Origin: Candidatus Obscuribacter phosphatis
Lineage (GTDB): Bacteria; Cyanobacteriota; Vampirovibrionia; Obscuribacterales; Obscuribacteraceae
Assembly: GCA_001899315.1 (NCBI GenBank)
Contig: MOYA01000001.1
Span: 372,001 to 436,000 of the forward strand
Length of the DNA stretch: 64,000 nt
Reading direction: 5' to 3'
The notes below the pieces were generated by a model that did not search any database, had not been told where the DNA came from, and saw only the letters and a program-made list of their open reading frames with translations. The first letter of the stretch is position 1, and every line of letters begins with the position of its first letter. Shown here piece by piece: positions 47,701-53,624 of this stretch. The translations under genes and the position numbers were made by a program.

Positions 47701-49179
47701 ATGGCCGACATCAAAGTTTTATACGTCGAGGACGCAAAGAGCTCCGGTGGAACTCTTCGCCAGGCTTTGAAAGACGCCCAGGTAAACCTAGTCCTGCTGG
47801 GTGGCGGCTTTGACGCCCTGGATGAGTTGATAGACAGTGGCGCCGATGCCATAGTTTCCTGTCTCGACCTTTCCGACTTGCCAGGCTACCAACTCAGTCA
47901 ACTAATCAAATCGAGCGCGGGCGCAAGCAAGATGCCCGTAGTTCTTTTCGGCACTGTCAGTATGGGGGCTCGCATAGATCCCCTTTGGATCAAAGGGTCG
48001 CAGTGCGATCTCTACGTAGCCGACCGCGATATCGGTAATGGAACCGATGTGGTCAAGCAGTTGCTTGAATTGGTCGAGAAATCTCGCAGTGCCGGTTTCA
48101 ACCGAAGCCAAGCCAGTTCTATGCTGAAATGCCGCTTTAATTTCTCCTCTTCAAAAGTTCTAGAGAGTAGTCAGAAGCTGCTGGACGAACTTCTCATATC
48201 TAGAAACGCGACCACCCTTGTATCTGATATGTTCAAAGAGGCTGGAAATCGCAAAGCTCTTTTGGACGTCTTTTATAGAGGCGCCGCTGCCTTTATCGAA
48301 GCTGATTTGGTTGGCTTAGTTGTAATTGGTGAGGCTCCCTGGGCTTCATTTTCAGCTGACGGTGTGGTTAGCGGAAGCTACAAGAAACTTGTCGACAGAC
48401 TAACAAACGAACTAGAGCTGCGCTCTGCACTTGAAATCGATTTGAGAGGAGAGTTGGTTGAGGGCACAGCTAAGGATTTAGGCTCAGTTCAGATTGTGCC
48501 TGTTGTTGCGCAGTCTAGGGCCGTTGGCGCTCTTGTGGTAGCAAGTAAAGACCGCAATAGCTTTTCGGACCAAGCTATTGCCTTCGGCGAGCAATTGGGA
48601 ATGGCGCTAGGTCCTCTATTTGAGTTGGTTTTAGCCAAGGAAGCTATTGCAAATCTCGAGTCCGCCGCGGCATACAACGCTTCAATAGATAGTCTCACTG
48701 GACTCTACAATCTCGAATTCTTTGTTGGTTTCTTGCAGCAGCAGCTACTCTTTTCTTTCAGGCAGCGTCTCCCCGTTGCAGTTGCGATCATTGATATAGA
48801 TAACTTCGAGAAGATAAATGAGCAGTATGGCGTCGAGTTTGGTGACGGCGCCTTGATGACGATAGCAAGCAGACTACTTAACATTACACGTTCTTCCGAT
48901 TTGATCGCTCGCTACGGAAGTGACCAGTTTGCCGTAGTACTGCCAAATACTGATGTGGCTGGTGCCAAAGTGCTGGGTGAGAAGGTTCGTTCTGAAGTAG
49001 AATCGATTGATTTCAGCGGGACTTCTTCCATTAGTTCTGGTCCTGTTCGCATTACAGTTTCTGTTGGCTGTGCAAGTTTCAACATGGAAGATCTTAATCC
49101 CGAGACAATACTTAGAGATGCTAAGGTTGCTCTTCGCAAGGCTAAAGATGAAGGTCGAAACAGAGTAATTCTAGGATAA
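47701..49179 (+). CDS. pseudo-receiver/GAF-like/degenerate GGDEF protein
   Basis: A signalling protein whose key catalytic and phospho-accepting residues are lost. Residues 1-125 form a receiver-like domain. The acidic pair E10-D11 remains, but the phospho-acceptor position, in the segment DAIVSCLDLSDLPG, is Cys54 instead of Asp. Residues about 170-320 look like a GAF domain (VFYRGAAAFIEADLVGLVVI; later IVPVVAQSRAVGALVV). Residues about 330-490 form a GGDEF fold with SIDSLTGLYNLEFF and IDIDNFEKIN intact, but the signature is GSDQF (406-410). It is therefore probably inactive and may bind GTP or c-di-GMP or only interact. ATG 47701 has AAGGAAG upstream. Divergent from the acyl-CoA dehydrogenase, with a 280-bp region between. 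Confidence 0.82.
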   Translation: MADIKVLYVEDAKSSGGTLRQALKDAQVNLVLLGGGFDALDELIDSGADAIVSCLDLSDLPGYQLSQLIKSSAGASKMPVVLFGTVSMGARIDPLWIKGSQCDLYVADRDIGNGTDVVKQLLELVEKSRSAGFNRSQASSMLKCRFNFSSSKVLESSQKLLDELLISRNATTLVSDMFKEAGNRKALLDVFYRGAAAFIEADLVGLVVIGEAPWASFSADGVVSGSYKKLVDRLTNELELRSALEIDLRGELVEGTAKDLGSVQIVPVVAQSRAVGALVVASKDRNSFSDQAIAFGEQLGMALGPLFELVLAKEAIANLESAAAYNASIDSLTGLYNLEFFVGFLQQQLLFSFRQRLPVAVAIIDIDNFEKINEQYGVEFGDGALMTIASRLLNITRSSDLIARYGSDQFAVVLPNTDVAGAKVLGEKVRSEVESIDFSGTSSISSGPVRITVSVGCASFNMEDLNPETILRDAKVALRKAKDEGRNRVILG

Positions 49180-49293: not shown

Positions 49294-49307
49294 GACCGAT
49301 ATCGGTC
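49294..49307. promoter_or_regulatory. 14-bp perfect palindrome upstream of the transposase-derived gene
   Basis: GACCGATATCGGTC is its own reverse complement and lies about 102 bases before ATG 49409, in a 229-bp non-coding gap. The core CCGATATCGG recurs at five other places in the window (see findings). An operator is possible but the binding protein is unknown. Confidence 0.45.
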
Positions 49308-49329: not shown

Positions 49330-49361
49330 CAAAAAAGTTTCGAGAAATTTGAACTTTTTTG
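49330..49361. promoter_or_regulatory. hairpin with A6/T6 arms in the leader of the 49409 gene
   Basis: CAAAAAAGTT (49330-49339) pairs with AACTTTTTTG (49352-49361) across 12 bases. It looks like a weak bidirectional terminator or attenuator in front of the gene at 49409. The arms are AT-rich and the stem is not strong. Confidence 0.4.
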
Positions 49362-49408
49362 TTCCAAATTACGTCTATATAACTACGACCTTCAAAGGGG
49401 GTAGCTTT

Positions 49409-50647
49409 ATGGATTTGAACAATCTAGATGCCGCTGCGCGTCTCAAGATATTTCTTACTGATGAGTACATCACTCGCAGGCAAGAACTCCTTGAGTCGTT
49501 CAATTTGGAGTACCCGGACGATGAAAGCTGTTGGCGGTCGATTCTCTTTGAAATGAAGCGAAGTGGCTCACTTCGTTGTAGGAAGTGTGGTTCAGAGGAC
49601 GTATCTATTTCGGCGGACTTTAGGGTGCTGTCGTGTTCTTTTTGTAATCGCGATAGCAGAGCAACCGCAGGTACATTCTTTCATGGAGTAAAGAAAATAC
49701 GTGCTTGGCTTTTTGCAATTTGGATAGTGGATAACGGTTTCTATGTTAGTTCAAAATGGTTTGCTTCGGCCGTTTCCGTGGCGCAGTCTTCGGCTCTACA
49801 TATAATTAAGTCTGCACTGGTGGTGGTTGGAAAAAGTCATGTTCCTAGTGAGTTTTTAGGATTGGAGCTTTCGCTATTCTGGCGATTCTTTGACAAGAGA
49901 ACTATATTGACGCAAGCACTGCGAAGTCCAAAAGACGAGCTGGATATTGACTCTTGTGACTCAACTAACGCAAATGATAAAGAAGAGTCTGACGATTCTA
50001 GTCGGTCAAATACCTATACAACAACAGATTGTAATGAAGCTGCTGAGCAAGATACCGGACCAGAAGCCGTTTCGAATTTTGCCGCTGAGCAAAAATCTGA
50101 ATCTGATTTTGTAGAGTTCCACAGTGAAGAATACCAGAAACCAGCTGAGTCGGAGCTGTTTGGACGCATCCTTTCTCTATTAGAGGAGGCGCCTAGAAAT
50201 GTCGATACATTGGTTGAATTGTTAGGTGGCAATAGCCAGGAGATTCTTTCTTTGCTAACGGAACTTGAGTTTGCCGGGCAGGTGAAGTCATGTGCTGGTG
50301 GATTCTTTGAAAGAGTCTATTCAAGCGCTCTTCGGACCACTGAAGCTAAAGTGGATCTGCTTGAAGTGTTAGAACAAGCTGATGAGAACAAGCAGGAAGA
50401 TGATCCCATTAAGAGATTTCAAATGGCCGCTCGATGTTTCTTTAGGGTATCAAAGTCTCTCGCAAAAGGCATCGGCAGAAAGTATCTGTCGCTCTATATG
50501 ACTTGTGCAAACGAGATCATTCTAGGTCTTTCAACTGGGCGTTTCCTTGGGAATTGTGTCTTGTCTGGCTACGTCGGATCGCGGTTTCTTCGAGGCTACT
50601 GTTCGGCTCTGCAAGTTGGTCTAGCTCCATGCGATGAAGTTATGTAG
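49409..50647 (+). CDS. transposase-derived protein: IS1595-type zinc ribbon and tail with DprA-like winged helix, no DDE core
   Basis: A 412-residue chimera that appears domesticated. Residues 31-140 match the N-terminal part of IS1595/ISXO2 transposases: FNLEYPDDESCWRSILFEMK, cited in part, a zinc ribbon (C57-x2-C60 and C76-x2-C79), then ATAGTFFHGVKKIRAWLFAI, where TxGTxFHGxKxxxxxWxxAIW is the family pattern. The next part should be the DDE catalytic core but no such acid triad or spacing is visible. Instead residues 175-250 are an acidic Ser/Asp/Glu linker, and 250-305 read like the DprA C-terminal winged helix (GRILSLLEEAPRNVDTLVEL; LTELEFAGQVKSCAGGFFER). Near residue 355, GIGRKYLSLYM recalls the ISXO2 C-terminal tail. 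ATG 49409 has AAGGGGG upstream. No terminal inverted repeats seen, so not an active element. Probably DNA-binding; role unknown. Confidence 0.65.
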   Translation: MDLNNLDAAARLKIFLTDEYITRRQELLESFNLEYPDDESCWRSILFEMKRSGSLRCRKCGSEDVSISADFRVLSCSFCNRDSRATAGTFFHGVKKIRAWLFAIWIVDNGFYVSSKWFASAVSVAQSSALHIIKSALVVVGKSHVPSEFLGLELSLFWRFFDKRTILTQALRSPKDELDIDSCDSTNANDKEESDDSSRSNTYTTTDCNEAAEQDTGPEAVSNFAAEQKSESDFVEFHSEEYQKPAESELFGRILSLLEEAPRNVDTLVELLGGNSQEILSLLTELEFAGQVKSCAGGFFERVYSSALRTTEAKVDLLEVLEQADENKQEDDPIKRFQMAARCFFRVSKSLAKGIGRKYLSLYMTCANEIILGLSTGRFLGNCVLSGYVGSRFLRGYCSALQVGLAPCDEVM

Positions 50648-52179: not shown

Positions 52180-53523
52180 TTAATCCGGAGTTGCAGGTGG
52201 ATTAAAATCATCCGATATCGGTTCAATAAACTGGTCTGAATTCTCCATTTCTGACAAAAGAGTTTTATTTTCGGGAACCGATATCGGTTCGTTCGGCGTC
52301 CCCGAATCTGGCAAAGTTTTTGATGAAACAGTTTCATCAAGAACCGATATCGGTTCGTTTTCATGTTCTGTATCGTCGGAAATTTCAAATTCAGTAGCTG
52401 AAGCCGACTTTTCGTTCGACTCTTCACCCTCTTGGCTATTCGGCGTGGACTTTTCTCCAATCACCTCGCCTGAAGCTTCTTTATTCTCAATTGCTTCGTT
52501 TAATGATTGCGTAGCGGAGAAATCTTTGCCTTCTGTTCTTTGCTCAGGCGTCAGTGCCGGGTCGAAAACAATTACATCATTTGAAACTGCCGCTTCTGCT
52601 AGCCCACCAGCCAGGGCTCTTTCCCTGATGGTCTCAAGCAGAACTCCAATACTAATCGGCCAAAGAAAAACATCTACAGCTGCTTTCCAAATTGTCCTTC
52701 CAAAAAGAATCCACACGGGCTCCGAATAACCGGGAATTTTTTGATGATTCAGAGCAAGATTTATGATGTCTGGTGTTTCAATGAATGTTCCCGCTATGAA
52801 TACAAGTAGAGCAATAAATGTCATCAGCGGCAAGCTTTGAAAAGTAAGCAGTAGCGAGTGCCAAAGTACTTTCCAGTTCGGACGATCCAGCAGAACGCTT
52901 AAGGCAATTCCACAGATGGTGAAATTGTTCAGGAACATTCCAGAGGCTGCGGCGACCAGTATCGCTGTGGGAATTTGCTTTTCGAGTAGTACTACTATTT
53001 CTTGAGCAATTGCAACGCCGCTATGCTGTTCTATTAGGGTGTGAAATTGAGCAAATAGAAAAAGAACCGTACTGCCAATGAAAATCAGTAGGGCTGGAAT
53101 TTGCAAAAGTGAGATCTCGAGCAAGAGCAGACAAAGCCTGCCTTTCTTCTTATCCAGTGTGGCTCTGGCCTCTCCCAGGTTGTTGCCTAAGGACAACGCT
53201 GAATCACCTGGGCGCGAGTTTAGATATGCTCGAAAAATTACTGCTACCCGCCATAGACCGAGGATCATTCCGATTAGCAGCAGGATGCCGCAAAGAATCA
53301 TTAGGCTCGACATAAGCAAAAGCAAAAGCAACGTATCGGTGCCGTTCTTGACAGGCAGCTTCATTGCCGGACCGATTATTGAATCTTGCATGTTCAAACA
53401 AAGCTGGGCACAAGCCAAAAGGACTACTGGCGTGAGCAAATAGCCTTTTGTCGCCCAAGCAAAACGAAGCAGATGAACTGCGAAATCGATTGTGAATATT
53501 CGCTTTATCGGCATGGTTTTCAT
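52180..53523 (-). CDS. multi-pass membrane protein with acidic repeat-bearing tail
   Basis: Not recognised. Residues 1-325 hold about six hydrophobic segments, including YLLTPVVLLACAQLCL, LLLLLLMSSLMILCGILLLI, LLEISLLQIPALLIFIGSTV and LPLMTFIALLVFIAGTFI, with positive-inside charges (WRVAVIFRAYLNSR). The C-terminal 125 residues are a disordered acidic tail (EGKDFSATQSLNEAIENKEA). In it the peptide EPIS occurs three times, each coded by the palindrome around CCGATATCGG. The start is uncertain: ATG 53523 without ribosome-binding site, or TTG 53577. The fold resembles small DUF-type membrane proteins with six helices, but no family can be named. Confidence 0.65.
   Translation of the reverse strand: MKTMPIKRIFTIDFAVHLLRFAWATKGYLLTPVVLLACAQLCLNMQDSIIGPAMKLPVKNGTDTLLLLLLMSSLMILCGILLLIGMILGLWRVAVIFRAYLNSRPGDSALSLGNNLGEARATLDKKKGRLCLLLLEISLLQIPALLIFIGSTVLFLFAQFHTLIEQHSGVAIAQEIVVLLEKQIPTAILVAAASGMFLNNFTICGIALSVLLDRPNWKVLWHSLLLTFQSLPLMTFIALLVFIAGTFIETPDIINLALNHQKIPGYSEPVWILFGRTIWKAAVDVFLWPISIGVLLETIRERALAGGLAEAAVSNDVIVFDPALTPEQRTEGKDFSATQSLNEAIENKEASGEVIGEKSTPNSQEGEESNEKSASATEFEISDDTEHENEPISVLDETVSSKTLPDSGTPNEPISVPENKTLLSEMENSDQFIEPISDDFNPPATPD
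52212..52356. repeat. three copies of a CCGATATCGG palindrome inside the membrane protein tail
   Basis: Sites at 52212-52221, 52275-52290 and 52341-52356. The last two are the 16-bp perfect palindrome GAACCGATATCGGTTC, coding Glu-Pro-Ile-Ser-Val. The intervening sequences differ, so the palindrome rather than a larger block is repeated, at intervals of about 63-66 bp. Confidence 0.85.
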
Positions 53524-53624
53524 GTCTGAATATGAGAGTCTGAAGTTATTGTCGGATACGTGAACCGCTGGTTGCAAAGGCGGTGTTGAGTTTCGGGCTT
53601 TCCAAGTGTAGGGATTGTGTAAAG

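Follow-up and report, generated by a model that had tools for sequence, protein, structure and literature searches.

A candidate DNA-binding protein family that combines an IS1595-transposase-like domain with a DprA-type winged helix under a promoter shared with competence genes in Candidatus Obscuribacterales

Closest described systems

IS1595/ISXO2 transposases (PF12760 and PF12762; NF033547) are similar to the N-terminal part of a 412-residue protein encoded in the window, the 64,000-nucleotide stretch of a Candidatus Obscuribacterales genome analyzed here. The similarity comprises a zinc ribbon and helix-turn-helix over residues 27–143, the order of the elements and a T(A)GT(F/I)F motif, but the family to which this protein belongs has neither a DDE core nor terminal inverted repeats, includes a DprA winged helix and is inherited vertically. 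DprA itself (PF02481 and PF17782) shares with the family the C-terminal winged helix and membership of a promoter set, but the family has a transposase-derived DNA-binding domain in place of the Rossmann-fold DNA-processing domain. The family is therefore neither a transposase, because the DDE core and the ends are absent, nor a DprA, because the Rossmann domain is absent.

Transcription of comEC, comF, dprA, and radC from an alternative sigma factor has been described for streptococcal ComX/SigX, whose core competence regulon includes ComEC, ComF, DprA, and RadC (PMC5069739), and for SigH of Lactobacillus sakei (PMC3364868). Genes of the same types appear to lie under one alternative sigma factor in the present genome; in contrast to the described regulons, the factor is of the ECF type with an anti-sigma factor, the organism belongs to the phylum Cyanobacteriota, and the regulon contains two large paralogous families of DNA-binding proteins. 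The DUS and USS of Neisseriaceae and Pasteurellaceae may also have a counterpart here, in a short word that is over-represented, lies in open reading frames and, between convergent genes, in inverted repeats, and occurs in a lineage with competence genes. Unlike DUS and USS, it is a perfect palindrome present in only tens of copies and located at the promoters of the family. Literature searches yielded no description of the protein family, in agreement with the first-pass annotation of this DNA, which had supposed that it might be undescribed, and none of an ECF-driven competence regulon in the Obscuribacterales group.

Architecture and inheritance of the protein family

The coding sequence (49409–50647, + strand) is intact, and its orthologue is 78% identical, with a dN/dS of 0.16. 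The IS1595-transposase-like N-terminal domain spans residues 27–143 (49487–49837, +) and comprises a zinc ribbon, with Cys57, Cys60, Cys76, and Cys79 (49577–49645, +), and a helix-turn-helix. The Pfam IS1595 zinc ribbon matches the protein alone at an E value of only 0.4, and NCBIfam NF033547 (IS1595 transposase) is matched by 18 of 62 family members individually. When a profile of the 62 relatives was aligned by hhalign with four IS1595 transposases from Cyanobacteriota, residues 27–143 matched with a probability of 99.2% and an E value of 2.9e-19. The four cysteines are kept in 61, 59, 62, and 62 of the 62 relatives, respectively, and the IS1595/ISXO2-type ribbon proposed in the first-pass annotation is thereby substantiated.

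The catalytic core that would follow in a transposase is missing, as had also been proposed. None of the 62 members contains a DDE/GG motif, and a conserved FxKRSxxTPAxxxPxxE motif (residues 160–177; 49886–49939, +) occupies the place in the alignment at which the first DDE motif is expected. The AlphaFold2 model of the protein (pLDDT 80.8, pTM 0.75) contains no RNase-H-like sheet and consists of a helical and zinc-ribbon N-terminal part, a disordered linker (residues 191–242), a winged helix, and a helical tail. The acidic linker placed in the middle of the protein by the earlier reading corresponds to residues 178–243 (49940–50137, +), which have a net charge of -16 and a pLDDT below 50 at residues 191–242. 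It is followed by the DprA-type winged helix (residues 244–298; 50138–50302, +), previously recognized by its pattern, which matches DprA_WH (PF17782) with an E value of 2.6e-11 and is present in 61 of the 62 members; the family profile also matches the C terminus of the DprA of the same genome (E 3.5e-15). The PF02481 Rossmann-type DNA-processing domain has no Pfam match in the 412-residue protein, and the true DprA of the genome is encoded elsewhere (C1:1086524). A Foldseek search of the model against the PDB gave no match below an E value of 0.001, the best being generic winged helices such as Zalpha.

The C-terminal tail (residues 335–405; 50411–50623, +) is helical and conserved, with the pattern G(I/V)SRKYLxLYL...C..GYxGSR in the alignment. 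The GIGRKYLSLYM sequence noted in the earlier reading is present, and its IS1595 origin is putative: the tail resembles the C terminus of IS1595 transposases in order and motif, and hhalign gives a probability of 5% and an E value of 0.007. Descent from a transposase C terminus is plausible on order and motif, but the match is not significant. Overall, a DNA-binding architecture for the protein is well supported. Inverted repeats of at least 14 nucleotides are absent between positions 48900 and 51200 of the window, so that none flank the gene, as noted previously, and the 3' flanks of the family copies are mutually unrelated.

The genome contains 19 divergent copies with about 26–51% identity to the 412-residue protein, one of which (L016, G000:C2:688103-690382) is split in mid-gene by a run of N, either a gap in the assembly or an insert that was withheld, its orthologue (L062) being intact. 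The sister species (G002) has 20 paralogues, and the tree pairs every one of the 19 copies with an orthologue of its own there, giving 19 pairs. Several orthologues at non-IS locations, with the DDE triad lost and the zinc cysteines kept, had been named beforehand as support for a protein made from transposon parts; these were found as the 19 paralogues here, the 20 in the sister species, and the copies in most other genera of the bacterial family. The comparison with the sister species also covered gene neighborhood and dN/dS, and the genes are syntenic and under purifying selection: the 18 intact pairs are 65–80% identical with dN/dS of 0.13–0.27, and both flanks align in 17 of the 18, the remaining pair, near a contig end, aligning on one side only. 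A gene that by eye looks like an IS1380-type transposase (L012) lies upstream of a copy near a contig end (G000:C3:749029) and may explain the one-sided break in synteny.

Most other genera of the bacterial family have 2–10 copies, which group largely by genome or genus in the tree. In a profile search of 386 genomes of the phylum, the matches listed from outside the bacterial family were all either DprA winged helices or IS1595-like N termini standing separately, with no fused zinc-ribbon/DprA_WH protein among them. Taken as a sequence record, the family thus displays vertical syntenic inheritance, purifying selection, a dead catalytic core, and a hybrid architecture.

The N-terminal homology to IS1595 and the presence of several copies in the genome are what would be expected if these were degenerate IS1595 transposases decaying after transposition. 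This explanation can be considered already refuted, because the orthologues are syntenic and pair one to one in the tree with dN/dS of 0.13–0.27, DprA_WH is nearly universal in the family, the copies have a promoter in common, no inverted repeats flank the gene in the window, and PF12762, the IS1595 DDE domain, has no match anywhere in the genome. Neither an intact DDE core nor a lone decaying copy accompanied by IS1595 fragments, either of which would mark a degenerate transposase, was seen. Another explanation is that the family consists of catalytically inactive repressors, derived from a transposase, that keep related mobile elements silent. The transposon-derived DNA-binding domain is indeed present in many copies, and tandem arrays occur among the palindromic repeats described below. 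A silencing function is nevertheless very improbable, since the genome has no IS1595 elements to silence and no relatives of the family were found in plasmids, phages, or viral contigs.

A promoter shared with DNA-uptake genes

Upstream of the gene, at positions 49349–49374 (+), is an exact copy of the ECF-sigma-type promoter TTGAACTTTTT-N12-CGT, the only match in the window at up to two mismatches. The GAACTT...CGT(C)T form is typical of ECF-sigma promoters. The region described in the first-pass annotation as an A/T hairpin overlaps the -35 box and is better read as part of this promoter. The same TTGAACTTTTT-N12-CGT element is present at all 19 family genes; for the 18 whose start has been mapped, it lies 55–68 bp ahead of the start codon. 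A genome-wide scan that allowed spacings of 8–14 bp identified 46 exact sites, each of them with a spacing of 12 bp, compared with none for a control with the reversed pattern; permitting one mismatch added only 8 sites, compared with 6 in the control.

Genes with an exact site include those for ComEC (PF03772, E 3.7e-41), ComM/YifB (TIGR00368, above its cut-off), RadC (PF04002), and 12 AbiEi-like helix-turn-helix paralogues. Sites with one mismatch precede the genes for DprA, a ComF-like phosphoribosyltransferase (best family TIGR00201, under its cut-off), UPF0102/YraN, and two further AbiEi-like proteins; because the control at one mismatch is 6, the identity of the genes counts for as much as the motif in the assignment of these members. 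Of 15 genomes of the bacterial family, 12 have the promoter ahead of ComEC, compared with 0 of 10 genomes outside it, and only 5 of the 15 have it ahead of DprA. Sharing of the promoter with competence genes is well supported, and the earlier guess that the protein might be a DNA-uptake factor is independently supported by the promoter common to ComEC, ComM, DprA, RadC, and the ComF-like gene. From this common promoter it follows that the protein probably has a role in natural transformation.

Two further observations concern the contents of this set. A DNA polymerase III alpha-like gene with a PHP domain (L081/L160, G000:C1:471901) also has an exact copy of the promoter. The AbiEi-like helix-turn-helix family has about 14 members (L076, L079, L088, L092, L099, L136, L137, L139, L142-L145, L164, and L165), one of which is recognized by PADLOC as AbiEi with an E value of 9e-11; many of the members have a palindrome of their own near AGAAATT-N-GAATTTCT.

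One of the 46 exact sites lies upstream of an ECF sigma factor gene (PF04542, PF08281; G000:C1:3075386; L100, L157), which is followed by genes for a zf-HC2 anti-sigma factor and a Spy-like protein. The encoded factor is probably the master of the regulon. Spy/LTXXQ-like secreted proteins elsewhere in the set also have the promoter, and an envelope signal or stress may therefore be the primary trigger. The anti-sigma and Spy-like genes of the ECF operon, together with these other secreted proteins, would equally suit an envelope-stress regulon in which the family members are ordinary transcription factors unrelated to uptake and the competence genes merely use the same sigma factor. We consider this unlikely, given that six genes of DNA uptake or processing occur among about 50 sites and that the link between ComEC and the promoter is kept across genera.

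A candidate palindromic ligand and the role of the family

The 14-bp palindrome reported in the first-pass annotation is present at positions 49294–49307 (GACCGATATCGGTC, with the core ACCGATATCGGT) and is a candidate operator. In most family copies, a palindrome with the core ACCG(ATAT)CGGT (ACCG-N4-CGGT) lies 31–56 bp before the GAAC box, with self-complementary arms that vary between copies. The palindrome score is 13 or higher in 10 of 18 intact copies, whereas shuffled sequences reached a maximum of 10.0 (n = 720) and never 12; three or four of the 19 copies have no clear palindrome. Since a different palindrome is found at many genes of the AbiEi-like family, the palindrome tracks the protein family rather than the promoter.

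The word ACCGWTAWCGGT is present 87 times in the 5.5-Mb genome, compared with 12 times for a control word. Among 24 genomes of the bacterial family, it exceeds the control in 15 of the 16 with the protein family, as compared with 1 of the 8 without it (Fisher p 2e-4; Mann-Whitney p 0.001), a comparison that ignores kinship and uses a control word that is an imperfect background. Some of the palindromes fall inside coding regions, where they are read in several different frames, and others are between convergent genes, locations that a pure promoter operator fails to explain. Those distant from family genes are often between convergent genes and have a terminator-like look.

Other properties of the palindrome were also considered. 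Preservation of the arms by compensatory change was not supported, the orthologues having 1 compensatory as compared with 19 broken pair columns. Helical phasing between palindrome and promoter was weak (p about 0.02), and other periods scored better. A plain terminator of the upstream gene is insufficient because the gene upstream of several family members is transcribed divergently. Within the window, three copies of CCGATATCGG, 66 bp apart (52212–52353), lie inside a coding sequence (52180–53577, - strand), where they encode a repeated EPIS; further tandem palindrome arrays are located at G000:C1:478761-478992 and C1:2873774-2873999.

With confidence and doubt in about equal measure, we interpret the family as transposon-derived DNA-binding proteins of a competence regulon that recognize the palindrome and either regulate their own genes or act on palindrome-bearing DNA during transformation. 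Both the binding of the palindrome and the biochemical role are inferred here. The family would have originated when the zinc-ribbon and helix-turn-helix half of an IS1595-type transposase was joined to a DprA winged helix and the DDE nuclease core was lost. The ECF sigma factor would read the promoter and turn on the family together with ComEC, ComM, DprA, RadC, and the ComF-like protein. The IS1595-derived domain would then bind ACCG-N4-CGGT, just as it formerly bound the ends of the transposon; a second contact, with DNA or with a partner, would come from the DprA-type winged helix. In the competent state, the proteins would regulate, in a sequence-specific manner, both their own promoters and other DNA that bears the palindrome.

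The main rival, which carries real weight and is a possible, if doubtful, explanation, is that the proteins handle incoming DNA directly, together with DprA and RecA. The winged helix would contact proteins or single strands. Self DNA would be marked by the transposase-derived domain through the dispersed palindromic word, which would act somewhat as an uptake sequence or a self-recognition sequence does. Such a function would suit the promoter common to ComEC, ComM, DprA, RadC, and the ComF-like gene, the winged helix in common with the DprA of the same genome, and the enrichment of the word, which follows the protein family; the placement of palindromes within coding regions, in several frames, and between convergent genes is likewise reminiscent of uptake words. 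Known uptake sequences are, however, far denser than the about 87 sites found here in 5.5 Mb, and sites occur at the family's own promoters. A broader proposal, speculative and rather unlikely, is that about 20 transposase-DprA hybrids per genome, driven by a dedicated ECF sigma factor, read a dispersed palindromic word for self-recognition or DNA sorting in a lineage-specific form of transformation.

If the interpretation as a competence-regulon family is true, it would provide a clear case in which the DNA-binding half of a transposase was recruited to natural transformation and radiated to a 20-member family, and it would place a competence regulon driven by an ECF sigma factor in a branch of the Cyanobacteriota that is non-photosynthetic. 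Co-regulation of about 50 genes is predicted from the promoter in common, and the palindrome is a candidate ligand, both of which are directly testable.
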